This document shows positions 13,494 through 60,330 of a stretch of 64,000 nt of DNA, piece after piece. The position numbers and the translations under genes are program-made. Source of the stretch: Platanthera guangdongensis (lineage: Eukaryota > Streptophyta > Magnoliopsida > Asparagales > Orchidaceae); contig CM077147.1 in assembly GCA_039583875.1 (NCBI GenBank), positions 109,910,124 to 109,974,123 of the forward strand. The letters are read 5' to 3'. Position 1 is the stretch's first letter. The number at the start of each line of letters is the position of its first letter. The notes beneath the pieces were generated by a model that did no database searches, was not told the origin of the DNA, and saw only the letters and a program-made list of their open reading frames with translations.

Positions 13494-13494
13494 A

Positions 13495-36350: not shown

Positions 36351-36379
36351 TTTACTTAGAGATATGTTGAGTAGAATTT

Positions 36380-36926: not shown

Positions 36927-36950
36927 TTTCCAAACTTTGCATCTCTTGAA

Positions 36951-39764: not shown

Positions 39765-40366
39765 CTGATAATTCCTTCTCTGGAGGGGACTCGGAAATAA
39801 TCTCAGCGACTAGAGGCGGTGCCTTAGTGTAAGCAAGTGGGAGCACCATATCAGTCGGGATGAGGGGATGAGGAGGAAGCTCTTCTTCCTGGAGCTGGGG
39901 CTCAAGAAGAACCTCCTCGAATAAAGTGAGTGCTTCAATGGAGACAAGTGGGGTCAAGGTGCTCGTGGGAGAAATGACGAGTCTAGAAAGTGGACTATTA
40001 ATAATTCGAAGTCCGGGTTCCACTAATTGATACGTAGTGGGAATGTAGTCAGGAAAATTATTTTGTTTGCGCAATGTCATTTCAAGATTGTGTAGGTCGG
40101 TGCACAACCACGTCAGATTCTGCGTGAGTTCAGCAGTGACGAACTCAACGTTTTTCATTAAAATTTTCATTCATTCTTCGAGACTCTCCATTTTTTAAAA
40201 TTATTATTACTATTATTATTGTTTTTTAAGTAATATAAAGATTTTTTTATATATAATATTTTTTTTAAAAAAAAAGTTAAATATATTTTAAAATAGATTT
40301 GCTTTAATTTTTCTTTTTTTTTTGAAATTCGGATAGCGTGATTCCCAATAGGAGCGAATCACATAC
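39765..40366 (-). other. D-element short internal region with an unrecognised ORF
   Basis: Only about 600 bp separate the LTR end from the primer-binding site. A minus-strand frame (39745-40170) runs MKILMKNVEFVTAELTQNLTWLCTDL, then a Pro/Glu-rich tail (EPQLQEEELPPHPLIP), and stops shortly after entering the LTR. No pol is present, so the element is non-autonomous. 40190-40330 is a T/A-rich low-complexity run. Confidence 0.5.
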
Positions 40367-40378
40367 GCCCTGATACCA
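40367..40378 (-). other. D-element primer-binding site
   Basis: Minus strand TGGTATCAGGGC, initiator-Met tRNA type, three bases from the LTR start at 40382. Establishes that D is an LTR element in minus orientation. Confidence 0.85.
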
Positions 40379-41707
40379 AACTGATGTAAACTAAAATCCC
40401 ATATATGATTTTAAATAAAGAAATTTGAAATTTACTTTTAAAAGTTGTAGTACTAGTGTGATTTTCTCGAGCAAACGGAGGGAGACAGTCAATCTCAAAT
40501 TCATAGACTCGTCTACGAGCCTAACGTTCAAACATAGTCAACGACATAACTTAATTATTCCACAAGTATAGACTTGAGTAGGAAATAAAAAGGAAACATG
40601 GTTATGAAAAATAACGTCAAACAAAAAACAAGACAATTAAGGCAACATGCTCTGATTTTTAATAATCAACTAAATATTAAGCATATCATTTTGTTAACAG
40701 GAACTAGCAAAGGAGATTTGGCTCGAAGATATACCAACTGGTCCTCAAGAAAACAACTGCTGGAATGGCAAAGAATAGTTGTAGGCTCGTCGCTGGAGTT
40801 GTCACTGGGGGAGGAGGGCCGGGAAAGCTTTGTCGGGGTCGACCGGCCTCGAAGGGAGGAGGAAGCACCGAACGGCCTCAGCATCCTTGCCAGGTCCAGT
40901 GGACTTGTTTCTGGTGGTAGAATACAGGGAAGGGTTTGCCGGAGTTAAGAGGCACGGTGGCCGGCGGAGGAGGGCTCGGCGATCTCTCCTGAAGAAAAAA
41001 CAGAAGGGAAACGACGGGTTATCGGGCTGGCTAACCGAGAAGTAGAGAAAGCTCTGTTCCCGACTTCTGAGAACCTCTTTTTGGGATAAAAGAATGATAT
41101 TTTATAGGAGGAATATTGAATTGGTATGGTGAGGGGGGGGGTCAGCTGCCTTGAGATGTCATTAAAATGGAAATAAATAATCAAAAGATAGTAATATGGG
41201 TAAGAGAGAAATTAATTGCTAAGAGAGAAAAATAAAGTTTTTAAAAACTTTCTAGAAGCAGAATTGTTTCTTCCCTACTAACTAATTTCAAAATTGGGTT
41301 TTGCCTAAAATGAGATATGCTTAATTTTTATAATAAATTGTTATTGAGCGCTTGCCCTAATTATCCTATTACCTAATTTGGCGAATCTTCTTATTTAAGG
41401 TCTTATTGGACGATTACCTGAATAAGCCATACGAGTGCACAAAATAAAATACATGTGCGCTAATACATGCGCTACAAATATCGCCATAAAATGCGTGAAA
41501 GAAAATACACATGCGCTAATATATGCGCAACAAATATCAAAATATAGTTGCATGAAATAAAATAAGACACATGATGCGACACAGGTAGCATCAATTCTCC
41601 CGAGGTTGAAAAATCTCGACCCCGTCGAGAGTGTAATGTAGCCTGCGACAAGAAAATCAAACCGTCAATCCGGACCTGCTTCGTTACTGTCATGTCCTGG
41701 ATGGTGG

Positions 41708-44008
41708 TGTAACACCCCCTATCCGTCGCATAGTATATAGCAGTAGGTCCGGCCGGGGCCCGACGCCATATACCACAGACAGACCGGGTGGTTACGTATG
41801 GAAACCATCCAACCAATCTCAACGTCCTACACAGAGCATTCTAGCGGAAGCAGTTTATAAGTTGTAAACAAGAACCCAGCATTAGAGCACGAATGTCCAC
41901 TATTACATAATTAGGAATGTCATACAAAATACCCAAAATCGGCCTTAAGGCCTTACAGAGTGTTTCACTTGAATAATACATGATTTACAAACCTCGGCAC
42001 GCAGGCCGGTCATACATGAATAAAACAGAAACATTTCTACTTGGGCCTTCGAGGGCCAGCTTCGCAAAAAGGCTTTAGCCCGCTATTGACCGCTTGGTCC
42101 AGCTGCACCTGCAAGCAACAAACCACCGCACGGTGGCAAAACAAGGCAACGGTCAGCAATGCTGACCAAATTATAACGATCCCGCCCCCAACTCGGGGCG
42201 GCGATGCTCCTTCCCTGCATTTCATTAGCATAAGCGAGCAATACATATAGCCATAGCCTTTTCATCACAGACGTTGGCTCGTACGGCCACACGTCCCGTG
42301 CACTCAGGGCACATTCTCGGTGAACCGGTCGATGTCACGTCAATTAAAGCCATTAACATTCCGGACTCACCACCGCCACTTAGACGGCCAAACCTATGAG
42401 CAATTCGTCTTCCTGGCCTGGGTCACGTCAATTAAAGCCATAGACCGCCGAAGACTCACATCTATGCCAACGGCGAGTGCCACGTAACCTTAGGTCTCTC
42501 TAGCCCGAACGACATAGAGCGGGTACGGTTCCATCTAACCCGTGCTCACATCGCAACGACAATTTAAGCCATTTGCGCGGGTCAAACTTCCACCGAGTCC
42601 CATTCTACCGCAAGACACATAACCCTGTTATGTTCAAGTTGGCTCTCAGGCCACCAAGTTGGCAAGATCTCGTATCCGCCAAGTTTTCCGGGTGCACCTT
42701 TGGGTTAGTCCCCAAGGCTCTCTGCTGCAATCTACCGCGTAGAAAACCCGAAAAACAACCAATAGCACGGAGTCTTCTCCGGCCTTATGCAATGCAACAT
42801 CACCGATCCAGACCAACATGTCCGGGTAGGCTTCACACAGAATGCCTATGTCCGTTCTCGCATACGGACTCTAAACAACGGGGACTTTACATATCTACCC
42901 GAAGGAACGCCTCCAACTCTCCACAAACTCGCGAGAGCGGGCTTCCTATGCTAAGAAAGAGAGCTATTCATGCTCAAGTTGAGGATCGTTAACCTTGAGT
43001 TCCTCTTTGGCGCCATCGAAAAAGTAATCGGATAGAAATCACCGCACTTGCATTGCCTCCGTGGATCCGGAGTCGGCTTGCGATTCGGAGCTCCGAAGCT
43101 CCTCCAATGGCGGATCTAGCTCTTCTTCTTCTTGCCTTAGCTCTCCTCTCTCCAAGGATTTAGAAAGAGAACAAGTGAGGAAAAGTGAGGTTTTCCAAGT
43201 CAACTCACGGGTATATCCTCTCAGGAACAACCCCCAGCCGTCGGATCTCAACCTAAGGAAACGAACGGCTTTGATTCGGGGCTGAAATGCCCAATCTGGG
43301 CCGAACACGGCCTGGCACACGCCCGTGTCCAGGGCCGTGTGCCGCATTCGCCGTCAAAATCGAATCACCTGGAACCTCACACGGGTATCGAACACGCCCG
43401 TGTTCGAGCTGACACGCCCGTGTTCCACCTAACACGGCCGTGTAGCCGGCCGTGTACACCATGATTTTCCCCCATTTTCAACCCGAGCACTGCACGGGTT
43501 CTAGGACACGCCCGTGTCCTTGCCCGTGTCACATTGACACGCCTGGACCCCAGGCCGTGTACACGGGACATTTCGTCGAGGGAAGAACGACGACTTGTTG
43601 ACACGGCCTTGGACACGCCCGTGTCCTAGGCCATGTTCCTTGTCTCGACGATCGTCGAGTGAATCTCGACGACTCCCCGGGACGATCGTCGACACGGGTC
43701 GACACGCCCTGCGACACGCCCGTGTCGCAGGCCGTGTGCCCATTCTCGACGAATCGTCGAGTATAACTCGACGACTTCACGGCTAAGTGTCGACACGGGT
43801 CGACACGCCCTGCGACACGCCCGTGTCGCAGGCCGTGTGCCCACTCTCGACGAATCGTCGAGTAAAACACGACGACTTCGCGGCTAAGTGTCGACACACG
43901 CTTGAAACGCCCTGGGACACGCCCGTGTCCCAGGCCGTGTGCCTGCTGCCAGAACCCAAACTGGCCCAAAACGTCCCCCTTTGCTTCTTTGAGTTTCGGG
44001 GCGTTACA
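41708..44008 (-). mobile_element. Gypsy-2 3' LTR (2301 bp)
   Basis: Full-length LTR. It retains 465 bp at the U5 end (41708 to about 42173) that the 5' LTR lacks; the LTR fragment at 13087-13493 confirms that this part is genuine. Contains the palindrome array 43290-43960. The minus-strand frame 42037-42108 follows AG|GTGCAG and ends in TAG. It is in phase with the LTR mini-exon but may be coincidental. Confidence 0.95.
43290..43960. repeat. Palindrome array with 101-bp tandem repeats, Gypsy-2 3' LTR
   Basis: ACACGCCCGTGT, ACACGGCCGTGT, CGACGATCGTCG and CGACGAATCGTCG recur. GTCGACACGGGTCGACACGC starts at 43688 and 43789, with a diverged third unit at 43890 (period 101). Also present in the 5' LTR at about 50013-50683. 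Confidence 0.95.
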
Positions 44009-44028
44009 ACTCTCCCCCTCTTAAAAGA
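44009..44028 (-). other. Gypsy-2 polypurine tract
   Basis: Minus strand TTTTAAGAGGGGGAGAGT lies directly before the 3' LTR; it primes plus-strand cDNA synthesis. Confidence 0.9.
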
Positions 44029-44043: not shown

Positions 44044-44268
44044 TTACATAAAGGAAAGACATACAAAACCAAAATTTGTACCTGAGCGGAACAACTCCGG
44101 ATACTCGTCAAGCATAGTCTGCTCTCGCTCCCAGGAGAGCTCCTCACGACCGCAATTGTCCCACCGGACCTTGACCATCCTGATCTCTTTATTGCGTAGC
44201 CGCTTGACCTCCGAGTCCTCAATCCGCACGGGCTTGACCTTTGTCGTTAGCCCACTATCCACCGGCAC
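44044..44268 (-). pseudogene. Gypsy-2 chromodomain-like C-terminus of Pol
   Basis: In frame with the integrase after a single TAA (at about 44269-44271): KPVRIEDSEVKRLRNKEI, MVKVRWDNCGREELSWERE, MLDEYPELF. Aromatic/tryptophan positions and spacing match the chromodomain of Del/Tekay-type chromoviruses, which binds heterochromatic histone marks. The stop would remove it from the protein. Confidence 0.85.
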
Positions 44269-45453
44269 TTAATCAACCGCGATCACTTGCGTAGGCTCTT
44301 GCACCGCCTTCTGAAGCACTGAAATGTGGAATACATCATGTAAACCACTTAGCTCCACTGAAAGCTTCAACCTATAGGCTGCTTCGCCAACTCGCTCCAG
44401 AACCTCAAACGGTCCAAGGTACCTCGGGCTTAGCTTTTTCAATCGCCGCACCCGCGAGACACCCTTGAACGGCTTGATCTTTAAGTATACATAATCGCCC
44501 ACAGCGAACTCCACGTTCCTGTGTTTGGCATTATAGTACTTTGCTTGCCGGTCCTGAGCAATAAGCAACCTCTCCCGAATGGTTCTCACCAAAGAAGTAG
44601 CACCCTCTACTTCCGATCGCTTATACAACTTTGACTCACCCGTTTCTATCCAAGACAACGGCGTGCGACATCTTCTACCATATAGGGCCTCGAAGGGCGC
44701 CATCTGAATACTTGCTTGGTAGCTGTTGTTGTATGCGAACTCCACCAAATAAAGGTGGTCTTCCCATTGCTTTCCAAAATCCAAGACACACATGCGAAGC
44801 ATGTCTTCCATGGTTCTATTCACCCTCTCGGTCTGCCCATCCGTTTGTGGGTGGAAGGCTGTGCTAAACTTCAGCTTTGTTCCCAACATTTGCTGCACCA
44901 GCCTCCAATCATTGGACGTGAACCGCCCATCTCGGTCACTCACGATGCTGCGGGGCACACCATGAAGCCGTACTATATTATCCACATAAAGCTTTGCCAG
45001 CTTCTCCACCGGATCATCCTTCCTATGCGGAATAAAATGCGACACCTTCGTTAATCGATCCACGACCACCCAAATGGCGTCGTTCCCCTTTTGCGACCTT
45101 GGCAAACCGTGCACAAAGTCCATAGAGATGTCGTCAAATTTCCACTCCGGAATAGGCAAGGACTTAAGAAATCCTCCCGGCTTTTGGCACTCCGCCTTTA
45201 CCAAGGCGCAGGTTTGGCACTTCGCTACGTATAGCGCCACATCCTTTTTCAAACCCGGCCACCAAAACAGTTTCTTCACATCGCGGTACATCTTCGTGCT
45301 CCCCGGGTGAATCGAGTACTTGGTATGATGTGCCTCGTACAACAACTCCACCCGTAAATTGCCCACGCTTGGGACGCACAGACGACCGTCTTTCCAAAGC
45401 AATCCGTCCTCCACGACGAATTGGGAATTTGACCCATCTAGAGCCTCTATCAT
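44269..45453 (-). pseudogene. Gypsy-2 integrase
   Basis: A 394-codon open frame in phase with RT-RNase H, separated from it by one TAG at about 45457. The zinc region is HHTKYSIHPGSTKMY then CQTCALVKAEC. Core residues are D in SMDFVHGLPRS, D in VSDRDGRF and E in FHPQTDGQTERVNRT, all intact. The C-terminal part is KKLSPRYLGPFEVLERVG and GLHDVFHISVLQ. It inserts cDNA into host chromatin. Protein length and motifs are typical for the group. Confidence 0.9.
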
Positions 45454-45456
45454 GGA

Positions 45457-46893
45457 CTACTTCATATGAGCATCCATATCCAAAGCCTGCCGAATCCGAT
45501 CAGCCAGGTCATATTGGACTTCAGTCCAATTCAGAACTGCTTCAGCACTTGATTGTCTGTCCACACAAACAATCTCCAACGCCTCCAACTCCCGCACCAA
45601 CCGCTCATCATGCACCGATAGCCAATTGGCTTGAGCTGGGGCTCGGCGACTCAACGCGTCCGCAACCGCATTCCCTTTGCCAGGCACGTAGTGGATCTTG
45701 AATGTATAGTCCCCCAGCAACTCCATCCACCTACGCTGCCGCATATTCAGATCCTTCTGATCAATTAGATACTTTAGGCTCTTGTGATCGGTGTAGATAT
45801 CAATCTTCACACCGTACAAATAGTGTCTCCACAGCTTCAAAGCAAAAATCACGGCCGCTAACTCCAAGTCATGCACCGGATAATTCCTCTCGCGCACTTT
45901 TAGCTGTCTCGAGCCATAAGCTATCACGCTTCCGTGCTGCAGTAGCACGCAACCCAAACCGCTGCCTGAAGCATCGCTATATATCTCATAGCCTTCGGTT
46001 CCATATGGCGAACTCAGCACAGGCGCCGTGGTCAACCGACACTTCAGTTCCTCAAAAGCTCGCGCGCACTCCGGCGTCCAAACGAACTTATGCTCCTTCC
46101 TCGTCAAAGTAGTGAGAGGTAACGCTATCCGCGAGAAGTTCTCTACGAAGCGCCTATAATAACCGGCAAGCCCCAAAAAGCTCCGGACTTCTGCTATCGT
46201 AGCAAGCTCAGGCCACTCCCGTATCGCAACAATCTTCGCCGGATCCACAGTAATACCCTCTCCACTCACTATATGCCCGAGGAACGCTACTGAGGATAGC
46301 CAAAACTCGCATTTCGAGAACTTGGCATACAACTGATTTCTCCTTAGCGTCTCCAACACCAAATGAAGATGCTTGAAGTGATCTTCCTCACTTTGCGAGT
46401 ACACCAAAATATCGTCGATGAAGACGATCACAAAATGGTCCAAGTACTCCCTGAACGTCCTGTTCATCAAATCCATGAATACTGACGGCGCATTAGTCAG
46501 CCCAAACGACATGACCGTAAACTCATAATGCCCGTACCTCATACTAAACGCTGTCTTCGGGATATCACTCTCCCTTATCCGCAGCTGATAGTACCCAGCC
46601 TTGAGATCCAACTTCGAGTACACCGTCGACCCGACTAACTGATCGAAGAGATCATCAATCCGGGGGATCGGGTACTTGTTCTTCTCCGTCAGCTTGTTTA
46701 GCTCCCGATAATCAATACATAGCCTCAAGCTTCCATCCTTCTTCTTAACAAAGAGGAACGGTGCGCTCCAAGGCGAAGAACTCGGGCGCACATACCCTTG
46801 CTCCAACAACTCTTGCAGTTGAACTTTCAGCTCCGCCATTTCCTTAGGCGCTAGCCGATACGGAGATCGTGACACAGGCATTGCACCTGGCAC
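45457..46893 (-). pseudogene. Gypsy-2 reverse transcriptase-RNase H
   Basis: A 478-codon open frame. [71 protein letters not shown], catalytic FIDDILVYS intact, [11 protein letters not shown]. RNase [37 protein letters not shown] with all acidic residues present. A TAA at about 46920 separates it from the protease, in the same frame. Closest in layout to Del/Tekay Pol. Confidence 0.95.
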
Positions 46894-46920
46894 TAGCTCG
46901 ATCGTAAAATCTATCTCCCG

Positions 46921-47487
46921 TTAAGGCGGGGCTCCAGGAAGATCTGCAGGGAACACATCAGGGTATTTCGATACCACTGAAATACAATCCAACGCGGGCT
47001 TCGGCTTTGCAACCTCCACTAGTGTAAAGAACAGTTCTGCTCCAGCACGAACCGCCTTCACCACCTGAAGAGCAGACATCAACGTCTTGCTCGACCCCTT
47101 TAAGCCCGTAAACGTCGTCTCACGACTCGCTCCCAGCTTAACTTCCTTGCTACCGCAATCTATATGGGTCTGCTGCTCCGAGAGCCAGTCCATGCCAAAT
47201 ATGACGTCGAACACCACTAACGGAAGTAAAGACGCTCACAGGTCGAACTCCTGCTCCCCAATACGAATCATAACATCACAGATCCTATCCGCTCGCATCG
47301 AACACCCATTGGGCAACAACACATCCAACTTATCCTTCGCCATCGAGGAAGGGACCCCGATGCGTAATATAAATCCTTCGGACAAGAAGGAGTGTGAAGC
47401 TCCCGTATCGAAGAGTGCTCGTGCCGGATTTTCACAAATCAATACAAATCCTAAACAAGTAGTGGTAAGGTAACATGTGCATAACAA
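46921..47487 (-). pseudogene. Gypsy-2 aspartic protease
   Basis: Two in-phase pieces split by one TGA at about 47236. ARALFDTGASHSFLS is the active site (47440-47400). VVFDVIFGMDWLSEQQ follows (47217 on), then VVSKYPDVFPADLPGAPP leading to RT. The frame differs from gag, as expected for a gag-pol shift or a mutation at about 47490-47515. Confidence 0.9.
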
Positions 47488-47515
47488 GCATATAAAGAAA
47501 TTGACTTGCTATAAA

Positions 47516-48670
47516 TTAAATCGTACCTGTCACCACATCAGCTTGTTTAATGGCCTCCTGTTGGCCAAGATTGTAGACCCTTGGTTGGGCCGGAGCATAA
47601 TGGGATGCAGTCGACTCCACCGCCTTTCCCTTCTCTTCATAAGTGGCTCCCGGACTCCTCTCGGACTTAGGACGTCCGCTCCAACAATCACGGGCAAAGT
47701 TCCCCGTCTTTCCGCATGTAAAACACGCGCCCGGGGTCCGACTCGTAGTCGCCCCAGAAGCACCAGAAGGAGCTGGACCCGAAGTCCTAAGCTTCTTGAA
47801 AGCCCTCCGATAGCCGGACTTTGAAGTAGTCGGCACTTTAAACTCAGATTTCTTCTCACCCAAGCTTTTCTTCGCTTGTACATTTTTCATGTTCTTCTCC
47901 AAGGACCAGGCAGTATTGACCAAGGTTAAGAAACCCTGCGTCATCGGCCCCGAGAGTAGCAACCTCAACTCGTCTCTCAACCCTTCGTAGAAGTGATTAG
48001 TCTTGCGCTCCTCATCCATGATGGTGGAGGTAGCATAACGACTCAACCGCGTAAACTCGTGGAGATATTCATCCACGCTCCTCTCACCCTGCACCAACTT
48101 CAGGAACTCATTCTCCATTGAAATCCTCTGAGTAGAAGGGAGGTATCTTGCTAAGAACAATCCCGAGAACTCTTCCATCGGAACGTCTATCAGTTGTCTA
48201 CCTCTCAAATGATGCAGCTCCAATCCTTCCCACCACATCCGCGCTTCACTGTCCAGCAGGAATGTAGCGATGGTGGTCATTTGCCACTCCTCCGTCTCCG
48301 TCGCCGTCATGACTCTCTTCACCCTAGAGAGCCAGTCTTCAGCCTGAGATGGGGTTCCCAACCCCGAGAATAACGGAGGGTTAAAGCTCATTACATGATT
48401 TAGTTGTCTCTCAGTTTCCCTCCTTGGCACTATTGGTTCTACAACCACTTGCTCCACCCTCCTCAGCTCAGCCTCTTGCAGAGGTTCTTGCTCCATCACA
48501 GGAGCGGGCTGCTGCGCTTGCCTTCCAGGCTGCGCATTAATCACGGCCAACACCGCTTCAGCCACCAAACGTATATTTTTAGCCGACAGAGGTGTTGCAG
48601 GAGCAACATCCGGTGCACTACTAGCCTCAGAAACTCGGCGTTCTGACGGCCCAACACCACTTCTGGTCAC
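47516..48670 (-). CDS. Gypsy-2 gag
   Basis: A 385-codon open stretch. The gag core lies at about codons 100-245 (PPLFSGLGTPSQAEDWLSRV, WWEGLE, EEFSGLFLARYLPS, LKLVQGERSVDEYLHEFTRLSRYA). The basic region precedes a zinc knuckle CFTCGKTGNFARDC in which the usual histidine is asparagine. The frame has no ATG at its start: it opens with GTG (48670) right after CCACTATAG, where a TAG blocks upstream extension and where the AG makes a splice acceptor. The first ATG is about 58 codons in. Initiation may come from the LTR mini-exon at 49717-49740, in phase. Confidence 0.85.
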   Translation of the reverse strand: MTRSGVGPSERRVSEASSAPDVAPATPLSAKNIRLVAEAVLAVINAQPGRQAQQPAPVMEQEPLQEAELRRVEQVVVEPIVPRRETERQLNHVMSFNPPLFSGLGTPSQAEDWLSRVKRVMTATETEEWQMTTIATFLLDSEARMWWEGLELHHLRGRQLIDVPMEEFSGLFLARYLPSTQRISMENEFLKLVQGERSVDEYLHEFTRLSRYATSTIMDEERKTNHFYEGLRDELRLLLSGPMTQGFLTLVNTAWSLEKNMKNVQAKKSLGEKKSEFKVPTTSKSGYRRAFKKLRTSGPAPSGASGATTSRTPGACFTCGKTGNFARDCWSGRPKSERSPGATYEEKGKAVESTASHYAPAQPRVYNLGQQEAIKQADVVTGTI

Positions 48671-48880
48671 CTATAGTGGTACAAAACACCGTTAAGCGAC
48701 CAAATTGTATTGCAAACAGCAATTATAGGAACACGCAGGTTCCTCAAACACGAGTATTTTCATTCCTAAATGGACATTCATGGGTTCTTTTACCATTATA
48801 ACGATGACGCACGCAATGTGCTCACCACCCCTTAAAAAGAATTCGCCCACGAATTCAGTTTAAGCCCGACCAAAACCAGT

Positions 48881-48892
48881 AGTGTGATACCA
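48881..48892 (-). other. Gypsy-2 primer-binding site
   Basis: Minus strand TGGTATCACACT, with the first 8 bases matching initiator-Met tRNA. Three bases separate it from the LTR-like TGTAAC at 48896. Confidence 0.85.
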
Positions 48893-48895
48893 AAT

Positions 48896-50731
48896 TGTAA
48901 CGATCCCGCCCCCAACTCGGGGCGGCGATGCTCCTTCCCTGCATTTCATTAGCATAAGCGAGCAATACATATAGCCATAGCCTTTTCATCACAGACGTTG
49001 GCTCGTACGGCCACACGTCCCGTGCACTCAGGGCACATTCTCGGTGAACCGGTCGATGTCACGTCAATTAAAGCCATTAACATTCCGGACTCACCACCGC
49101 CACTTAGACGGCCAAACCTATGAGCAATTCGTCTTCCTGGCCTGGGTCACGTCAATTAAAGCCATAGTCCGCCGAAGACTCACATCTATGCCAACGGCGA
49201 GTGCCACGTAACCTTAGGTCTCTCTAGCCCGAACGACATAGAGCAGGTACGGTTCGATCTAACCCGTGCTCACATCGCAATGACAATTTAAGCCATTTGC
49301 GCGGGTCAAACTTCCACCGAGTCCCATTCTACCGCAAGACACATAACCCCATTATGTTCAAGTTGGCTCTCAGGCCACCAAGTTGGCAAGATCTCGTATC
49401 CGCCCAGTTTTCCGGGTGCACCTTTGGGTTAGTCCCCAAGGCTCCCTGCTGCAATCTACCGCGTAGAAAACCCGAAAAACAACCAATAGCACGGAGTCTT
49501 CTCCGGCCTTATGCAATGCAACATCACCGATCCAGACCAACATGTCCGGGTAGGCTTCACACAGAATGCCTATGTCCGTTCTCGCATACGGACTCTAAAC
49601 AACGGGGACTTTACATATCTACCCGAAGGAACGCCTCCAACTCTCCGCAAACTCGCGAGAGCGGGCTTCCTATGCTAAGAAAGAGAGCTATTCATGCTCA
49701 AGATGAGGATCGTTACCCTTGAGTTCCTCTTTGGCGCCATCGAAAAGTAATCGGATAGAAATCACCGCACTTGCGTTGCCTCCGTGGATCCGGAGTCGGC
49801 TTGCGATTCGGAGCTCCGAAGCTCCTCCAATGGCGGATCTAGCTCTTCTTCTTCTTGCCTTAGCTCTCCTCTCTCCAAGGATTTAGAAAGAGAACAAGTG
49901 AGGAAAAGTGAGGTTTTCCAAGTCAACTCACGGGTATATCCTCTCAGGAACAACCCCCAGCCGTCGGATCTCAACCTAAGGAAACGAACGGCTTTGATTC
50001 GGGGCTGAAATGCCCAATCTGGGCCAAACACGGCCTGGCACACGCCCGTGTCCAGGGCCGTGTGCCGCATTCGCCGTCAAAATCGAATCACCTGGAACCT
50101 CACACGGGTATCGAACACGCCCGTGTTCGAGCTGACACGCCCGTGTTCCACCTAACACGGCCGTGTAGCCGGCCGTGTACACCATGATTTTCCCCCATTT
50201 TCAACCCGAGCACTGCACGGGTTCTAGGACACGCCCGTGTCCTTGCCCGTGTCACATTGACACGCCTGGACCCCAGGCCGTGTACACGGGACATTTCGTC
50301 GAGGGAAGAACGACGACTTGTTGACACGGCCTTGGACACGCCCCTGTCCTAGGCCGTGTTCCTTGTCTCGACGATCGTCGAGTGAATCTCGACGACTCCC
50401 CGGGACGATCGTCGACACGGGTCGACACGCCCTGCAACACGCCCGTGTCGCAGGCCGTGTGCCCATTCTCGACGAATCGTCGAGTATAACTCGACGACTT
50501 CACGGCTAAGTGTCGACACGGGTCGACACGGCCTGCGACACGCCCGTGTCGCAGGCCGTGTGCCCACTCTCGACGAATCGTCGAGTAAAACACGACGACT
50601 TCGCGGCTAAGTGTCGACACACGCTTGACACGCCCTGGGACACGCCCGTGTCCCAGGCCGTGTGCCTGCTGCCAGAACTCAAACTGGCCCAAAACGTCCC
50701 CCTTTGCTCCTTTGAGTTTTGGGGCGTTACA
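48896..50731 (-). mobile_element. Gypsy-2 5' LTR, U5 end deleted
   Basis: 1836 bp, matching 42173-44008 of the other LTR. The U5 terminal 465 bp is missing: GTGATACCAAATT|GTAACGATCCCG joins at a place where the intact LTR reads CTGACCAAATTATAACGATCCCG. The 8-bp ACCAAATT shared by both suggests a microhomology deletion. TATA-like GGATATACCC (complement of about 49932-49941) lies just downstream of the palindrome array. Confidence 0.9.
49717..49740 (-). CDS. Candidate LTR-encoded gag start exon of Gypsy-2
   Basis: The first ATG after the LTR TATA (none lies between) starts eight codons, MAPKRNSR, ending at AAGG|GTAACG, a good donor. They end in phase 0. Internal gag opens in phase 0 with VTRSGVG immediately after an AG (48671). 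The predicted intron, 48671-49716, removes U5 and the primer-binding site. Solo LTR S has the analogous MPPRRVTRSMGG exon. In the 3' LTR the donor reads GTTAAC. Inference; no RNA evidence is available here. Confidence 0.5.
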
Positions 50732-51022
50732 GGTGGTGCGTAGTGAGGCAAAGAAGGATCCTCTAGTGCAGCTCTGGACTTGTAGGCAAACTCCCTTTCC
50801 TGAAAAATAAAGGAAACCAATCTCCTTCGAAAAAATATAATTCCCGGTGAAAGAATCAACCATAGAATTATAAATTTTCGAATATGCTCGCAAACAGTTA
50901 GTCAAAATTTTATGTATGATATTTAAATGACCAGAAAAAATTAGAGCATAAAAGGGAATGGTATCACAAAATATGGGAGAGCGGGGATCAAAGAGATGGG
51001 GTGGGAAGCAAATAAGCTCGAC

Positions 51023-51398
51023 TTATGGATTCATTAATTCACATCGTATCGTATGCTCTCCTGTCAGACACATATGAGCATCTATTACACTGAAATCAAC
51101 TATCCCAAACATTTCACACGATCGAATCTGACTAACGTTACAAACTTTAAGATGAATCCCAAATTTAATATTTAAACTTTTCCAGAGAAATCCTTTAAAT
51201 CTAGTGTCTTTGTTTGGCGTGAAAATTTTTGGCATTCCTATTATCCTTAGAACACGAGTTTTCTTGAATAAATCGATAATTTGATAGTAAAAATCTTCAG
51301 ACACATTTATAATTATGGGATAATGTAGTGACACAAGATGATGTTCCCCAAATATAAAATCAATATACGGTGGTGATTCCAATGTGAGTGATACATCA
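51023..51398 (-). other. Conserved reading frame within D LTR (function unknown)
   Basis: In Db the frame (no ATG at its left limit; enters from the LTR start) encodes LTLESPPYIDFIFGEHHLVS, HYPIIINVSEDFYYQIIDLF, RFKGFLWKSLNIKFGIH and EMFGIVDFSVIDAHMCLTGEHT, then a TAA. In Da the corresponding text continues past that point (CELITPQVELICFPPHL to 38944) but has a 1-bp shift earlier. The three D copies keep largely synonymous-looking text here. I do not recognise the protein. Confidence 0.45.
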
Positions 51399-51440
51399 CT
51401 AATAATTCCATCTCTGGGCGGGACTCGGAAACAATTACTA
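51399..51440 (-). mobile_element. Stub of D internal region at the Db right edge
   Basis: CTAATAATTCC-TCTCTGG...GGGACTCGGAAACAAT parallels Da's downstream flank at 39765-39800, so the second LTR is followed by D internal sequence before Copia-Md begins at about 51450. Confidence 0.75.
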
Positions 51441-51449
51441 AACCACTGT

Positions 51450-53028
51450 ATTACCTCTCTTATGTAAACAGTCTGTCATTTATTTCTTAAGCAAATTTAC
51501 CTCTAATCTGATAGATTTGATGTCCTGTGCCAGACTAAACTGCACCTCCTTGTGGCTTTCATTCACATACTTTTGTAATGCAAGTCTTTGATCATTAAGT
51601 TTGACTTGCAGTTGTACTAATAAAGAACTAAAATCTATTATAGGAGCGGTAGATGTGGAGCCCGCCTTTAAGACTTTCTTATATCTAGAGTTCTTTTTCT
51701 GTAGCTTCATAAACTTTCTTTTCTTAAATAGTAAGGCTACTCCCTCATCTTTAGAAGCAGAGGATATCTCAAGTTCCACTGTTGTGCCTGGAAGATCTAC
51801 ATCTAGTCTTGGGGCTTGGAATCAGAGGATATTTCTGTTGATGCACCCTTGCAGCAGTTGGTGCATCATTAGAAATATCTTCCTTGTGCACCTCTTCTCG
51901 CTCCCCCTGGAAGTCAGTCTCTAATTCTTGAATTACTTCAGTCTCAGGAGCCCGAGGTATCTCTGGCAGATCAGGAATATACACATCCAGTCCCTCTCTT
52001 TCAGAAGGGTCAGCAGTTGTGTTGATGTCATGAACCACTTCCATTACAGTGAGCTTTGCAGTCTCACTGTCTAACTGTGCTTCAATGATAGTTTCCCCAG
52101 GGACTGGTAGCTCTTGATTATCTGTTAGATGGATAGGCTGCCCCTGGATTTGAGCTTCAATTTCAGGTGTGTGAGTTGGATACTTCCATGGTTGTTCAGT
52201 GTTATCTTCATTAGAACTGAATTCTACTCTTTCTTCTAAGTCACTGGAGGACTATTCAGCGTGCACTGTGTCTTTCTTTGACGTTGTGACCTGTTTTGAC
52301 TTCTGCTTTATTGTAGGGTCTTCCTTGGACAATACTCTGTCCCACCTAGAAAAGATTCTCTTATCCATTCTCTTCATGTGGTTAATTTTGAAACCAACAA
52401 TCTGGTTTAGTACATCAGGTATACTGACAGCCAGATGCAGACTTAAGATTCTGCCTATCTTTGGCTTCTTAATACTTTCCTTAATCTTGTTAAAGATTAC
52501 TGTACTCCTGTCAGTCTTCACCTTGAAGATGAATCTTGTCATAAGGCTGAACATGTAGGAAGAGATCCTATCATCCCCCCTAGTTTTGCAGAGAACTACC
52601 TTCCCAATTATCTTAGACAGAAACTTCCCATTGGATTTCATCCCTTTCCTAGTCATGGAAGATCCAATGTTTGTGGTTGAGGGCAGCCCACACTATTTAA
52701 GGGCTTCAGCAGTCAAATTAGAATCAACCTCAGTCCCTTCTTTTATCCTTGGAAGTTGAAGGGATTTACTCAGACTTTTGAGTATTATTTTTACCGTTTC
52801 ACTGTAAACAGTAGACTTGATATTGTTCCCCTTTGAAATCAACGTAGCGTTGGAGAAGAATTGTAGAACTTCCTTCCTCCAAATTCTTGTTGATTCTAAA
52901 ACCAAATAATCCAGTCCGGCTTCCTGGATTAGGACCACAACTGCCTTAATTTCTTGTTCAGCATCATTGAACGCTCCCCGAACGAGCTCATAACCTTCGT
53001 GAATGTTGTTGTCCAACTTGGGTGCCAT
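51450..53028 (-). pseudogene. Copia-Md accessory 3' ORF
   Basis: Starts ATG 53028 (MAPKLDNNIHEGYELVRGAF). The N-terminal globular part includes WRKEVLQFFSNATL and SLSKSLQLPRIKEGTEV (weakly like the plant-mobile-element N-terminal domain seen in many plant repeats; unverified). Next comes a central basic part (MTRKGMKSNGKFLSKIIGKVV, IGRILSLHLAVSIPDVLNQIVGFKI), an acidic linker (ETEVIQELETDFQGEREEVHKED) and the start of the coiled-coil region. A TAG at about 52692 and a frameshift at about 51775 interrupt it. The C-terminal half is missing, cut by the D element. Mc has tryptophan at the TAG position. Confidence 0.8.
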
Positions 53029-53136
53029 TTGAGATGATAGAAGTGAAGTTGAAGAGAAGGAAAAAGAATTCCTTGTCGAAACAGACGGTTTAGTCTCGAG
53101 ATTTCAGAGAGCGTAGTCGACATGGTAACGTTTCCA

Positions 53137-53146
53137 CCTATTTATA
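53137..53146 (-). promoter_or_regulatory. Internal TATA box upstream of accessory ORF
   Basis: TATAAATAGG on the minus strand, about 109 bp upstream of ATG 53028 and about 50 bp downstream of the TCGACA array. This is the same order as in the family's LTR (array, then CTATAAATAG). An ATG at 53123 would lie upstream of the expected start site. Confidence 0.55.
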
Positions 53147-53194
53147 ATTTTCTAAATAGGGAATGTGAAAAGGCGGGCTGAAAATAGAGTTTCT

Positions 53195-53460
53195 TATGTC
53201 GACACAATTTTGATTATGTCGACACAGACTGCTAAAGTCTCAATAGAGAGTTTAGAGTCTCGATAACTCTATGTGTCGACACTAATTTCTGAGTGTCGAC
53301 ACAGACGACCTTATGCGTTGACACCAACATGTGAGTGTCAATAACTCTATGTGTTGACACGAACTTCTGAGTGTCGACACATACTTCTTTATGTGTCGAC
53401 ACAAACTTCTGAGTGTCGACACAGACTACTTTATATGTCGACACTAATATAATTAGTCAT
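53195..53460. repeat. TCGACA array upstream of Copia-Md accessory ORF
   Basis: TCGAC or variants at 53199, 53219, 53240, 53260, 53276, 53296, 53318, 53338, 53354, 53374, 53396, 53416 and 53438, with spacings of 20, 22, 20 and 16 bp making a 78-bp higher-order unit. Confidence 0.95.
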
Positions 53461-53519
53461 ATGTTGAGTCGAATTTTTCTTAATTTGCGATCCTATTCCA
53501 GGTTCAACATGCCTAGTTC

Positions 53520-54049
53520 AATTTTAATTTAATTGAATTTACTTTCATCTAGAGGTTTTGTGAATATATCAGCTACTTGTGTATCAGTAGAAATAAACTC
53601 TAGACTTATGTCCTCTTTCTCAACATGTTCTCTAATAAAATGGAACTTAATTTCAATGTGTTTTGTTCTTCTATGGAAACAAGGTTTCTAGTAATTTATG
53701 TAGCACTAGTAGAATCACAGTATAATGGAGTTTTACTTATCTTAATGTCATAATCTTCTAGTTGATGTTGTATCCATAGAAACTGAGCACGACAACTTCC
53801 GGCTGCAATATATTCTGACTCTGTTGTGGATATAACAACACTTGTCTGCTTTTTGTTATTCCATGACACCAATCTTCCACCTAGGAATTGGCATGTACCG
53901 GTGGTACTATTCTTGTCTTCCTTGCATCCTGCAAAGTCTCCATCTGAAAAGCCTGTTAGCAGAAAATCTCTATTCCTAGGGTACCATATACCAAGATCTT
54001 GTGTGCCCTTAAGATATCTTAAAATTCTCTTGGCAGCAGAATAATAAGA
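53520..54049 (-). pseudogene. Copia-Md RNase H
   Basis: Minus-strand text AAKRILRYLKGTQDLGIWYP, GFSDGDFAGCKEDKNSTTG, LVSWNNKKQTSVV, STTESEYIAAGSCRAQFLW, DYDIKISKTPLYCDSTSA is a copia RNase H with its usual D-E-D residues. A stop at about 54050 separates it from RT in the same frame, and the end is degraded toward 53520. Confidence 0.85.
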
Positions 54050-54967
54050 CTATTTAGGGCATGCCTGGTATCTAGTACAGACACATGTAGCATACATTAT
54101 GTCAGGCCTACTTGCAGTCAAGTATAAAAAGAAGCCAATTATCCCTCTATACAAAGACTCATCAATAGGTTTCCCTACCTCATCTTTGCCTAAAGGTATG
54201 CTTGAACAAATTTGAGTTTTCATGGGGGAAGTAGTCTCCATGCCATATTTTTTAATCAACTCCCTGGTGAACTTGGACTGGGATATGGATAATCCATCAT
54301 CAGTCTGTTTTACTTGAAGTCCCATGAAGAACTTTAGCTCACCCATGCTGCTCATCTCAAACTTCCCTTGCATAAGTTTGGCAAACTTCCTACAAAGGTT
54401 GTTCTCTGTAGATCCAAATATTATGTCATCAATATATATCTAAACTAGGATAATCTTGCCCTTTTATTCCATCAGGAATAGGGTCTTGTCTATTTTCCCC
54501 CTTGAGAATTTGTTCTCAATGAGGAAAGTAGACAATGTCTCATACCGTGCTCTAGGGGCTTGTTTCAACCCAGATAGAGCTTTCTTAAGTCTATAGACAT
54601 GATCAGGAAAGTGAGGATCTGCAATACCTCATGGCTGGTCCACATATACTTCCTCTTTTAGATCTCCATTCAGGAATGCTGGCTTGACATCCATTTGAAA
54701 GACCTTGAATTCTTTATAGGTTGCATAGGAAAGGAATAGTCTTATTGATTCCAGCATTGCTACTGGGGCAAAGGTCTTGAAAAAGTTTATTCCTTCTTCC
54801 TTCATGTAGCCTTTTGCTACCAATTTGGCCTTGTTCTTGATAATAATGCCATTTTCATCTAACTTATTACTGTAGATCCACTTAGACCCTATTACATTAT
54901 ATCCCTTAGGTCTGGGAACCAGTTTCCAAACTTTGCATCTCTTGAATTGGTTCAACTCTTCGTGCAT
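54050..54967 (-). pseudogene. Copia-Md reverse transcriptase
   Basis: N-terminal half 54629-54967: [66 protein letters not shown]. Then, after stops, IYIDDIIFGST with the catalytic aspartates intact (about 54425), and FEMSSMGELKFFMGLQVKQ through SRPDIMYATCVCTRYQ (54050-54373). It makes element cDNA in particles when functional. Confidence 0.9.
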
Positions 54968-55290
54968 AGCACCAATCTAGAATGAATCTTGGATAGCCTC
55001 TTCAAAGTTCTTTGGTTCCATTTGAGACAGAAAGCTTGAACATAGTGTTGAGTTCAAGCTCTTGCTTCTGGTCATTACACCATGACTTGCATCACCAATG
55101 ATTAGATGAGCTGGATGATCTCTTAAATGTCTCTATGCTCGAGGTAATCTTTCTTCAGCTTGCTGATCCTCAATGTCTTAAGCTGGTTGTTCTTCATTCT
55201 CATCTTGTAAGTCTTGAGCTCCACCTGGACAACATCTGTCATCTTCACTCTCTTACCCTGCTGGTTTATCTTCCCTAATGGTCAGATTGT

Positions 55291-56274
55291 TCATCTATCT
55301 TTTAAACCTGCAGGACTAGAAGAACTGCTTGACATCTCACAGTTAATTAACTTAAACTCATGAAAGACAACATGGATAGATTCTTGTACAACTTGTGTAG
55401 TCAAGTTATAGATCCTATATGCTATACTATTACTATTGTAACCAACATATATCCCTTTTTGGGACTTGGCAGAAAACTTAGTTAAATTAGACTTACCATT
55501 GTTTAGTACATAACAATTGGTACCAAAAATCATAAAATAGGACAAATTTTGTTTTCTGCCTTTCAGGATCTCATAGGGAGTCTTTTTGTGACTTTTAGAG
55601 ATGGAGGCTCTATTGAGAACATGATAATTAGTATTTACTACCTCAGCCCAGAAATATTCTGGGAGAGAAGTGTCATTTGACAAAGTCCTACCTGCCTTTA
55701 TTGGAGTTTTGTTCTTCCTTTCAGCAATTCCATTTTGCTGGGGAGTTCTAGGTAAGGAGAATTCTTGATGAATCCCAAGCCCTTCACAGAACTTTGTCAA
55801 GCATTCAGATTGAAACTCAGTCCCATGATGACTTCTGATCTTGACCATAGAACTATTAAATTCATTCTGAATTTGCTTGACAAAAGTCTGGAAGATATCT
55901 GGGGTTTCAGATTTTCTCCTTAAGAAGAATACCCAAGCAAACCTGGAAAAGTCATCAACCACCACAAGTATATAGACTTTCCTACCTAGACTATGAACTT
56001 GCATATGACCAAATAGATCCATATGCACGAGATATAAATATCTCACTGAGTCCTTGGAATCAAGACTTTGGAAGGAAGAACTGTTCTGCTTGCCCTTTTG
56101 ACAAGTTTAGCAAATTCCCTCCTTAATGCACTTGACTTCAGGATCATTCCTCAACAACTCTTCACTAAAGAGTCTACCTATGGTCTTGTAGTTCAGGTGA
56201 GCTAGCCTCTTGTGCCAAATGAAATAATGAGAAACTTTCTCATCTCTAACTAGGAATATAGGAGTGTCCTCACT
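55291..56274 (-). pseudogene. Copia-Md integrase
   Basis: Pre-integrase zinc region (WHKRLAHLNYKTIGRLF then CIKEGIC..CQKGKQ, about 56060-56230, with a stop), core with HMDLFGHMQVHSLGRKVY (first D), KIRSHHGTEFQSE (the second catalytic D of RSDHG is H), and EFSLPRTPQQNGIAERKNK (E). The C-terminal half has FGTNCYVLNNGK and GIYVGYNSNSIAYRIYN. 251 codons are open from 56046. The D-to-H change disables it. Confidence 0.9.
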
Positions 56275-56649
56275 CTAACACTCAAAGTCTAGACAGTAAA
56301 CATTTCCACTCCTAGTGCCTGTCAAGATAACTCCTTGATCACTTGACCTTCTAATTTGACACTCATCCTTGAGGAAAGAAATGTCATAGCCCAAATCACA
56401 TAGTTGACTTATTCTTATAAGGTTATGTTTCAAACCTTTCACATAAGCTACTTGTGTGATAGTTACTATGCCATTAGTTATCTTACCCAAACCTTTAGTT
56501 ACACCTTTTTCTGAGCCCCCAAAGGTAACTCTAGGACGATTCTTAATAGGAGTGTATTCCTTTAGCACACTTCTTGTTTCAGTCATGTGTCTGGAACATC
56601 CACTGTCCAAGTACCATATAGGGGTATGGCCACTTGGACTTACCTGCAA
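56275..56649 (-). pseudogene. Copia-Md protease
   Basis: WYLDSGCSRHMTETRSVL is the copia retropepsin site, followed by VTFGGSEKGVTKGLGKI and VKGLKHNLIRISQLCDLGY. Open for 124 codons to a stop just before the integrase. It lies downstream of the gag tail in the usual copia order. Confidence 0.9.
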
Positions 56650-56657
56650 TAAATATA

Positions 56658-57900
56658 TTATCTAACCTTAGGAACCCACATTTTTCTGGGTCCTAGGTGT
56701 AAGTTAGACTTAAACTGAACATGACTACATGTAGTTCTTCTGACAGATAAGCCGTCATTACTTCTCTGGACACTCTCACTATGCCAGCAATCAATGACAT
56801 ACTGGCCCACTTTACCACAGCACCAGCACTCATGCACATTGTACCTTCTTTTAATAATGGGCTTCACAGCAATGTTGTTTGTAGCTCTCAACCCTGCTGG
56901 TACATCAGCTCATTTCTTAAGTCTTTCAGCCACAGCTTGCTTAGGGACATGTATGGTAGCAGAAGTACTTGGGATATCTTGAACTCTATCTGCAACTGCT
57001 TTCTTTTTAGAAAGCATACTCCTGATAACTTCAGATATTCCTAAGTCAGGTTTGCTAACAGACTTTCCCTTAGCTTCCAAATGGGCTGGCAGAACTTGTG
57101 AGTCAGCTACTACATTGTTCTTGAGTGTTAGGGCTGGTACAACAAAGACAAATGGTCCATTTTGAGCCATTTGGGTTTTCTCTTGGGCTGCCCAATCGAC
57201 ACTAGAACCCTTGACATTTCTACTACCTTGCTCACAGTGATCATAAATACTATCATGGTCATACCTGTTAGAAGGTTGATCCACCTTTTTAAAAGATATT
57301 TGAGGCTTGGAAGCAAGTGGCTGAGCCGAAGCTTTGCCTTTCCTATTGGAATTGGTAGCTCTTGTTCTTCCTTTGAAACCTAGACCATTCTTACCCTTTT
57401 GGGAAGAGAAGGAATCTATCAAAGCTAATACAGAACTAGGTTTTGAAAACTTGGCCACTAGCTCCCTCTCCTTTTGGAGTCTACTTTCAAGATTCCTAAT
57501 ATGATTATTTTTGAAAGTAATTGTATCCATCCAAATAACAGTTATTTTCTTCAATTTAATAATCTCTTTTAACATCTGATCCAGCACTTTTGTTGAGTCT
57601 GAGGTAGACAACTTCAGACTGGCATTCTCCTTTGCCAGGTGTTTGGATAGGAGCCTGCTTTCCTTAAAGGCTTGCAGAAGCTCTCCATAATCATAAATCA
57701 GTTGATTGATGTCTCCTTTAGATTCAGAGCCATCTTTATATCTTGATGAAGATGCTTCTGACTCTGGACTAATAACATAATCTGATATTGAGGGTGAAGT
57801 TTGTACCTTACTAGGACCAACCTGCTCCTAGCTGAGTTCATCCTCAGCTATAGCCATCAGACTAATGCCTTGGCTATTTTCTGCTTTATTAATTTCATCC
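56658..57900 (-). pseudogene. Copia-Md gag C-terminal part
   Basis: From 57900 leftward: acidic text ending KGDINQLIYDYGELLQAFKESR, the coiled-coil-like LKLSTSDSTKVLDQMLKEI and RNLESRLQKERELVAKFSK, a Lys/Ser-rich stretch, QKTQMAQNGPFVF-like text and GKSVSKPDLGISEVIRSML (to 56910), then a second zinc knuckle CWCCGKVGQYVIDC (56658-56891) with H replaced by Y. Stops interrupt at several places. The long gag tail with two zinc knuckles is unusual for copia Gag. Confidence 0.8.
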
Positions 57901-58465
57901 AATAATTACAAGAATTCTGTTTCTACAGAATTTTCCTCAGTTGAGAACAGCCCAACGTAGGCCTCAGCATCCTCTTCATTTTCTGACTCTGATGAAGAAG
58001 AGTCAGTACAGCTTTTCAGCTTCTTAGCCACAAAGGATTTCTCTTTCTTGCCTTTATACTGATGTTTGTTTTCTCACCAGACTCCTTTCTTTTGACAGGA
58101 CAGTCTGCTATAACATGTCCTGACTTGCTGCAACAATAACAAACAATTTTAGTAGATGTCTGTTTACTATGTTTAGAACCATACCATTCCTCTTTAGAGG
58201 TTTTCTTCTTTCCCTTGTAGCTCTCATCCTTGGAGTAAGAGGAAGAGGAAGGCCTTCTCCTCCAGTTCTTTTTCTTCATAAACTTCTGGAATTGCCTAGA
58301 AAAAGCAGCAAGCTCCTCAATAGAATTATCGCCATCTGTTGTGCTAGTGTCTGAACTTTCTGACTCAGTATCAACAACTTTTCAGGGAGGAGGAGTATTT
58401 CTCCTGCCCTTCTTTGTAGCTTCAACTTTGAAAGCCACAGACTTATCTTTGAAATAAGACCTGTT
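57901..58465 (-). pseudogene. Copia-Md gag zinc-knuckle region, truncated
   Basis: VAFKVEATKKGRRNTPPP (about 58390-58440), LAAFSRQFQKFMKKKNWRRRP, a Lys/Ser-rich stretch, the knuckle CYCCSKSGHVIADC (about 58120-58080), and an acidic SSSESENEEDAEAY region. The gag core that should precede it (as in Copia-Ma) is missing: homology ends at about 58465. Confidence 0.85.
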
Positions 58466-60330
58466 GATGCAGGCTACGTCTCATGACAAACTGCAACAGA
58501 CAAACGACACTGAATTGTTCTATCACGTTCCAATTATGCGTTTGCACAATCAAATGGTTTAGTTCTTAATTGAGGTCTTTTAACACACACGATTAATTTA
58601 ACACGCGTAATCCTTGTTAACCAAACAATACCACAACATTCACAACACCTAAAATTATGAGTCCTAACCGCTCCAATATTTGTCGTGTATAACACAACGT
58701 CACAACAACAATCTGAGAAGAACTTGACTAAAAAGTATGATCCAAAATTAGTCTTGTTCGCCCCAAAAAAATCTGAATATAACAATAAGGTTAGCTAATC
58801 CTTTAGAGATCTAATAAGGGCTATTTGCCAATATTTGGATCAAGCGAATAGGATCCACCCGATCTAGAATCGATTAAGGAAATTGAAGAACATAAACAAC
58901 AAAATTAGATTTTTAAAATGACAGATTCAAAAGCCGCGGATAAAATTCGACGTCTCGCAACCTCCAACTAATTAATAAAGGAATCACACAAGTGTAGATA
59001 TTTTTCGTTACCCAATCACAAGAAAATAGACCTTCAAAATCATCCACAAGGATGAGCGGATGAATCACACGATGAAGGTGGAAAGATCCACTTCCACGAA
59101 ATTCCATGGAGCGGCACCTGAAGGAGAAGACGCACGCCGCTTTCTTCGGAGTCACCGGACGAGATCCAGGAAAGATGATACGTGAAAGTTCCTTAGGTTT
59201 CTTCAAGAGGGAATGGAGGGGATTAGAGAGAAGGGGTCGGCCAGAAGGGCTTAGAGGAGGAGTGGAGAGGGTAGCCGAATAGATGGGGGGAGGAGATAGG
59301 GTGGTCGGCGGCCAAAGAGGGGAGGAGGAGAGTTGGCTGCTAGGGATTGAGGGGTGGCCGAAATTTTGAGAGGAGCGGAAGAGGAGGGAAGACTCAAGAG
59401 GGGAAAATTAGGGTTTAACTCAATTTCATTCATCACTATTCTTTTCATTACCCATGCAAGCATATATATAGGATACACCACTCAATATCCACCATACAAC
59501 AATAATCTAAAACATAGATGGTTATAGACAACCCATCTCCAACATAAAAATTTAAATAACAATGAAAATAACAATAACATGAAATAAAATGCTAAAAGTG
59601 AACAAGCTTAAAAATAAAATAAAATTCTTAAAAATATATAATTATAAATATTTAATTTATAACCATATATTTTTATGTGACGGTAACGGACGACGACATG
59701 CGTAACATGTAGCGGAGATTTGGCGCGGCGTTGGTGATGGATGTCGTGGTAGAATATTAACTTCAAGCTTGCGGCAATGATCGTATCAATCAACAAACTC
59801 TCTGTGGCGGAGATCAGCGGCCTCATCAGCAACATCATCATGAACAAGTGGTGGGACTTCGCCGCCAATAATTAATCGGTCATGAGCATTACGAGCACAT
59901 GGCCAGGCCTCTTCGCCATCAATGCTCCCCCACTCAAAATCACCCATCACCGATGAGTGTCCAGGAAGAGTGTGGTGTAATAAAGCAGCCTCCAAATGTA
60001 GTACGACGAGCTCTCAAGTAATAGCCGAGAGTAACCTGTGAAGCATTACCAAAATAACCAAGGTTTTCAAAAAACTAGACATAATTGTGACAGAAAGAAA
60101 AATGACGTTTGTCTTACCAACCAGTGCAAGTACCATGGAATCCCAGTGGAAGATAGATACGGCAATAACTTCACTCCCCAACCCATGCGAACATTTAGTG
60201 GGAGGAAGAAGCGATAGAGAAAGCCACTCTAGAGGAGGAGAAATATACAACATAAAATACGGGACGTTGAAAATGAGTACTAGTGTGATTGGAGGCTGCT
60301 TTGAAGAAATTTGAAATTTACGTCATTTTT
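58466..60330. other. Unassigned region, LTR-like plus unknown
   Basis: On the minus strand TATATATAGG (about 59463-59472) is followed by AAACCCTAATTTTCCCC and a CT-rich leader (59400-59200), resembling a plant LTR or gene promoter. A left terminus TGATGCAGG at 58466 adjoins Copia-Md. From 59690 to 60260 there is minus-strand gene-like sequence with a donor-like GGTTGGTAAGAC at about 60115 and an acceptor-like CTTCACAG at about 60040; I do not recognise the product. 60270-60330 contains scrambled pieces of D LTR. Confidence 0.4.

Follow-up and report, generated by a model that had tools for sequence, protein, structure and literature searches.

A Ty3/gypsy retrotransposon of the orchid Platanthera guangdongensis in which the start codon of gag is probably spliced from the 5' LTR

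Introduction

For plant LTR retrotransposons, it is an open question how one RNA can double as message and as genome. The element Gypsy-2 raises this question in a particular form. It was found in a window of 64,000 nucleotides of the Platanthera guangdongensis genome (contig CM077147.1; the window is the whole stretch of DNA that was analysed, and all positions refer to it), and its gag frame opens directly after a stop codon, without any ATG in a long N-terminal part. Where does the translation of gag begin? The original prediction, made from the letters alone, placed the start codon in a mini-exon inside the 5' LTR, joined to gag by the removal of an intron in which the primer-binding site lies. 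From the analysis reported here, we give a probability of about 0.8 to the reading that Gypsy-2, a Ty3/gypsy element whose end is chromodomain-like, has its gag-pol split in exons and the start codon of gag spliced from the 5' LTR.

Results

Structure and surroundings of Gypsy-2

Gypsy-2 displays two LTRs, a target duplication, a primer-binding site, a polypurine tract and an RT-RNase H region located before the integrase, as expected for Ty3/gypsy elements (Table 1). The Pfam matches follow the Ty3/gypsy order, namely gag, protease, RT-RNase H and integrase, and the protease match begins directly after intron 2. The C-terminal end of the integrase matches the chromodomain PF00385 with an E-value of 1.7e-4 and 21.9 bits, a score that does not reach the curated cut-off of 25.1. 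Our guess is that the element belongs to the Tekay/Del clade. The sequence TGGTATCA is taken here to be a primer-binding site of the initiator-Met type.

Table 1. Features of Gypsy-2 in the window. Positions are given on the forward strand of the window.
Feature	Position	Strand	Length	Sequence or content	Basis or remark
Whole element	50731 to 41708	minus			flanked by the 5-bp repeat CCACC
Target duplication	50732-50736 and 41703-41707		5 bp	CCACC	
5' LTR	48896..50731	minus	1836 bp		self-comparison, reading of both LTRs, other copies
TATA-like match	49934..49940	minus		GATATAC	motif scan; 200 nt ahead of the ATG; putative promoter
LTR mini-exon, coding part	49717..49740	minus	24 nt	ATG and 7 codons, MAPKRNSR	phase 0
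Intron 1 (predicted)	48671..49716	minus	1046 nt	donor GTAACG, acceptor TATAG	
Primer-binding site	48885..48892	minus		TGGTATCA	within intron 1
Branch-point-like motif	48691..48696	minus		CTTAAC	candidate motif, about 22 nt 5' of the acceptor
gag exon	47527..48670	minus		Retrotrans_gag	ATG-free in the first 58 codons
Intron 2	47451..47526	minus	76 nt	CAG/GTACGA...TTGTTTAG/GA	gag/protease boundary
Protease, RT-RNase H, integrase, chromodomain-like end	44047..47450	minus			in-frame stops in the window copy
Polypurine tract	44010..44022	minus		AAGAGGGGGAGAG	by eye; ahead of the 3' LTR
3' LTR	41708..44008	minus	2301 bp	TGTAAC...GTTACA	self-comparison, reading of the LTRs

The 5' LTR of the window copy is short by about 466 bp at its 3' end in comparison with the 3' LTR and with other copies. 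In the copies compared, the LTR ends with GTGTTACA or a close sequence, followed by ATT and then by TGGTATCAGA, and an internal site NTTATAATTTGGT is found about 700 nt upstream of gag in seven of the eight other copies compared. The LTR-end site and the internal site NTTATAATTTGGT are fused in the window copy, in which about 466 bp of U5 are missing and the primer-binding site is retained. This loss, noted at 48885-48901 and 42165-42177 on the minus strand, was apparently a deletion between two near-identical 13-bp sites (GTTAYAATTTGGT).

Gypsy-2 is inserted into one copy of a repeated block. Repeated blocks about 88-95% alike are found around it at 34363-41709 and 50732-61807, and another block copy retains the empty homologous site of the insertion, at about 61620-61660. 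The U3 of both Gypsy-2 LTRs contains tandem units of about 101 bp (43688-43897 and 50411-50620) in which ACACGGGCGTGTC-like motifs are abundant; similar motifs are present in the LTR of the family B described below. Elsewhere in the window, a tandem duplication of about 1.13 kb (8045-9170 and 9175-10303) is 93% identical.

Gypsy-2 is present in many copies in the genome of 4.25 Gb, where the 107 best-scoring gag matches were scored out of 140,607 candidates. The protein search found a single database relative, from Platanthera zijinensis, which matches 89% of the query at 73% and whose gene model begins at an internal Met.

A predicted mini-exon with a start codon in the 5' LTR

In the window copy, the first ATG past the TATA-like box is at 49740-49738 on the minus strand. 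It begins the peptide MAPKRNSR and runs in phase 0 into the donor GTAACG, which begins at 49716. The last letter of the acceptor (...CCACTATAG) is 48671; from 48670 on, gag reads GTGACCAGAAGT (VTRSGVG), in the phase that joins both frames. The TAG that closes intron 1 doubles as an in-frame stop immediately 5' of gag, and the first Met of the gag frame is codon 59. The original prediction had claimed a gag frame open after this TAG and free of ATG for about 58 codons, an LTR ATG meeting a phase-0 donor, a phase-matched acceptor and an intron containing the primer-binding site, and all these features were recovered on the minus strand at coordinates that agree. Intron 1 also contains the end of the LTR, though about 466 bp of U5 have been deleted; because of this deletion, its length in the window copy is reduced to 1046 nt.

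The stretch from 30 nt beyond the TATA-like box to the mini-exon contains no ATG, and 26 ATGs are present inside intron 1. The combination of an ATG-free leader and a phase-0 G/GTRA donor in the frame of the first ATG was obtained in 0.22% of 5000 dinucleotide shuffles, with a criterion chosen post hoc. The counterpart of the mini-exon end in the 3' LTR reads AAGGTTAACG, versus AAGGGTAACG in the 5' LTR. Relative to what we take as the donor consensus, GTAACG is weak at positions +5 and +6. The candidate branch point CTTAAC presumably resembles the branch-point motif, and in each of its six columns the window letter is kept in 36 to 38 of the 38 aligned copies.

Conservation within family A

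The window copy is a member of family A (it is the copy L001 in the gag comparison). The region upstream of gag was taken from 40 copies; three of them, which have no exact anchor word, were absent from the first counts and are included in the 40-copy counts by a tolerant match. In these counts, the mini-exon ATG is conserved in 39 of 40 copies (the lone exception reads ATA), the donor GT and the acceptor AG in 40 of 40, and the mini-exon is free of stop codons in all of them. Just before VTRSGVG, at the place where an ATG in the unspliced frame would have argued against splicing, the 40 copies all have the TAG stop instead. The length of intron 1 is comprised between 1491 and 1542 nt in 37 other copies, versus 1046 nt in the window copy, and the lengths in the family are spread over all three classes modulo 3. 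The leader is ATG-free in 34 of 38 copies, intron 1 holds 26-44 ATGs, and a TATA-like match is located 180-201 nt upstream of the mini-exon ATG in 36 of the 37 other copies.

These copies are closely related and had been ranked on the similarity of their proteins, so that their conservation is by itself weak evidence. The mini-exon and its donor are at rank 203 of 490 thirty-base windows, which is not unusual for the LTR; conservation within family A, no stronger here than over much of the LTR, was dropped as a proof of the mini-exon.

Comparison of families A and B

Because conservation within the family is unexceptional, the case for the mini-exon is carried by the comparison between families. 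Family B was reached from an old LTR located at 12514-13494. On the plus strand, the old family-B LTR is observed at 11182-13494 and is about 71% alike to the LTR end of Gypsy-2; the U3 part of this LTR recurs at 1-1323, where only about 110 bp separate it from a TGTTACA end. Family-B copies were picked by their LTR DNA: 40 LTR ends were listed, that of the window included, and 20 of the other 39 were examined further. Nine copies, which look old and damaged, were taken as having 5' LTRs with a leader like that of Gypsy-2.

The LTRs of families A and B are about 70% alike. Between the families, the mini-exon is 70% identical. The leader ahead of it shows 64% identity and the stretch past the donor 73%; the values for the 5' UTR and the start of gag are 85% and 73%, respectively. 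The mini-exon is matched in the nine family-B copies (24 nt, ungapped, at most 5 substitutions), with the donor GT in 9/9, the ATG in 8/9 and the acceptor AG in 8/9. That relatives would keep ATG, donor and acceptor was an expectation of the original prediction, and it is borne out in both families. The family-B peptide is MAPKRTSR in two copies; the seven others differ by 1-4 residues, and one of them has a stop.

Five sites of the mini-exon have a different majority letter in A and B, and four of these differences are synonymous (codons read by eye; with 5.6 of the 24 sites synonymous, the binomial P is 0.012). The pN/pS between families is 0.22 in frame, or 0.17 using the seven of nine copies that have the ATG and no stop, and the pattern is reversed in the other two frames. 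In a scan of 337 windows between A and B, the mini-exon has rank 8; four of the seven windows above it overlap the mini-exon in the same frame, and the three non-overlapping ones are at +182 to +188. Judged from these substitution patterns, a peptide-coding stretch is retained by families A and B within an otherwise diverged LTR. The LTR start codon looks common to these two families and not to Gypsy-1, the element considered with intron 2 below.

The same comparison bears on an alternative in which the intron of the 5' leader uses other splice sites, the LTR ATG belongs to a regulatory upstream ORF and the phase match is luck. The weak donor of intron 1 would be compatible with it. In maize CRM4-derived tandem repeat cDNAs, as described in the part of the source available, most of the 5' UTR is removed by splicing, and a splice inside the LTR is also found in one cDNA (PMC3648361). 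However, any spliced form would still require a start codon, and the phase, the exon length and the MAPKR(N/T)SR coding signature are common to two families; we consider this alternative improbable.

The N-terminus of gag upstream of the first Met

In gag codons 1-58, the variants found in two or more of 30 copies are 14 synonymous and 2 replacement changes (16 and 3, respectively, in an overlapping set of 38 copies). With these shared variants, the pN/pS of codons 1-58 is 0.05 versus 0.08 for the rest of gag, and with all variants of the 30 copies it is 0.18 versus 0.16, values that are lowered in family A by the ranking of copies on protein similarity. Between families A and B, the codons before the first Met have a pN/pS of 0.36 in frame, and the two other frames give 1.32 and 1.22. 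Codons 1-58 are thus probably translated. With these codons under protein constraint, translation would therefore start upstream of them, where no ATG is available without splicing.

Gag could otherwise start at codon 59, the first in-frame Met ahead of the conserved gag domain, and the open frame upstream would be incidental. Residue 134, where the gag match of Pfam begins, is downstream of codon 59, and the P. zijinensis relative is modelled from its internal Met, as such a start would allow. Against it, codons 1-58 are constrained like the rest of gag, with in-frame constraint also between families, Met59 is absent in one of 30 copies, and an unspliced leader would present 26-44 upstream ATGs. 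A start at codon 59 is in our opinion very improbable. We judge in the same way a non-AUG start (GUG at codon 1) or a shunting of ribosomes along the unspliced RNA. The window copy has GTG as codon 1, directly after the stop, and plant pararetroviruses shunt past leaders with many short ORFs (PMC5902531, from the part available); however, this would leave unexplained the ATG, the frame, the like peptide, the donor and the acceptor common to families A and B, and codon 1 is TTG in one of the nine family-B copies, though that copy may be dead. Finally, a degenerate non-autonomous lineage, with gag unexpressed and the ATG lost by decay, is hardly credible: the window copy has stops in pol, several fetched family-A copies carry stops in gag and 13 of the 107 best-scoring gag matches list one, but 94 of these 107 list none at about 94-96% identity, with constraint at the protein level.

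A second intron between gag and protease

Gag ends with VVTG ahead of intron 2, its stop codon TAA (47518-47516) is inside the intron, and the protease frame picks up at FVLICENPARALFDTGASHSF. The GT and AG of intron 2 are present in 29 of 29 placed family-A copies, with a length of 75-77 nt; the copy L025 was not placed in this count and was placed in the junction and tree set. The proportion of non-majority letters is 0.032 in intron 2, 0.030 on the protease side and 0.011 on the gag side.

A probe of the spliced intron-2 junction detected 145 genomic places with at most 3 mismatches, 30 of them exact, and the reversed control detected none. From the places listed, 18 of the 145 were hand-chosen at 0 or 1 mismatch, and 17 of these 18 show the same spliced junction (L130 was not placed). 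Gypsy-2 RNA is spliced at intron 2, as recorded by these genomic retrocopies. A tree was obtained from the 17 intron-2-less places and 29 intron-bearing copies (L013 was not placed). The intron-2 state needs 10 changes on this tree, at least five of them forced by starred branches, versus an average of 14 with shuffled labels, which indicates that the label is partly clustered. One single clade of intron-2-less copies is rejected (AU p 5.2e-5). In a tree whose bootstrap is unsettled, and where recombination could also spread a loss, the simplest reading is that spliced RNA was reverse transcribed many times, with repeated losses of intron 2. Such recurrent loss would amount to a natural archive of RNA that was spliced and then reverse transcribed.

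The probe of the mini-exon/gag junction, designed on family A, detected 0 genomic places with at most 3 mismatches in a search that skipped very common words, so that this absence is not firm. If intron 1 is spliced, genomic copies devoid of it are not expected, because the corresponding RNA would be without U5 and primer-binding site.

In family B, the region of intron 2 was recognised in six of nine stretches, with GT in 5/6 and AG in 4/5 of those with the protease side matched. Gypsy-1 belongs to a different family, with a pol about 63-67% alike to that of Gypsy-2 at the DNA level and its own gag ATG at 6136; it has a 92-nt GT...AG stretch at 5016-4925 (minus strand), at the same gag/protease site and in the same phase. 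Intron 2 looks older than the arrangement of the LTR start codon, because a like stretch is present in Gypsy-1 too, which does not share the LTR start codon of families A and B.

Discussion

Proposed expression of Gypsy-2

According to the proposed model, exon 1 would start in the 5' LTR and end with the 8-codon coding stretch, where the sole start codon that can be used would lie. What remains of the LTR would fall within intron 1, together with the primer-binding site and the former leader, and exon 2 would be gag. The conserved and coding-constrained anatomy suggests that removal of intron 1 would give a translatable gag message. When intron 2 is kept, translation would stop after Gag, and when it is removed, Gag-Pol would be produced, which may set the ratio of these proteins. 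The RNA retaining intron 1 would keep U5 and the primer-binding site and would be the only form suited to the usual reverse transcription; its translation, begun at the LTR ATG, would yield just a short peptide. The spliced RNA would, we infer, serve translation only.

It seems fairly likely that the coding exons of gag begin with the LTR itself, that intron 1 splits the template from the Gag RNA, that intron 2 splits Gag from Gag-Pol in replacement of a frameshift or readthrough, and that this arrangement predates the split of families A and B. If this is true, an intron holding the primer-binding site would separate the roles of message and genome by splicing alone, and annotators could overlook the real start of gag in such elements and split gag from pol.

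Comparison with known systems

Gypsy-2 resembles the plant chromoviruses (Tekay/Del, CRM and kin) by its gag-protease-RT-RNase H-integrase order, its chromodomain-like end, its Met-type primer-binding site and its TG...CA LTRs. In yeast Ty1, the start codon of Gag is also located in the 5' LTR; unlike in Gypsy-2, the frame is continuous and no splicing is involved.

A start codon of the LTR spliced to gag was matched by no paper in the literature searched, which covered only a minority of the subscription papers. A search by terms in the available parts of the chromovirus papers PMC6317226, PMC3605345 and PMC3059260 found no spliced join of an LTR start codon to gag, and nothing of this arrangement was found in the accessible portions of PMC4079200, PMC9289625 and PMC7175516. 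The closest descriptions below are likewise taken from the parts of the sources that were available. For Diaspora (2005), donors were predicted in the LTR and acceptors near the start of gag, and introns upstream of gag were called unreported (PMC1142308). The maize CRM4-derived repeats differ from Gypsy-2 in being cut-down tandem repeats with no stated link to gag translation (PMC3648361). In rice tungro bacilliform virus, a short ORF of the leader gives the start codon of ORF IV and is spliced to this distant ORF (PMC5902531); this virus is a pararetrovirus and the protein is P4, whereas in Gypsy-2 gag itself is concerned and the primer-binding site would be lost together with the intron.

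Intron 2 also has counterparts. In Ogre elements of pea and Medicago, an intron lies between gag-protease and RT, and its partial splicing joins the coding parts (PMC6317226, PMC12786077). The Ogre intron is thus located after the protease, whereas Gypsy-2 has one intron ahead of gag and one between gag and protease, and none between protease and RT. In the Ty1/copia elements EVADE and BARE1, splicing to a short gag parts the translated RNA from the genomic RNA and adjusts Gag to Pol (PMC12786077). There, splicing excises the protease and gives the short gag; in Gypsy-2, Gag would result when intron 2 stays in the RNA, and Gag-Pol when it is spliced out.
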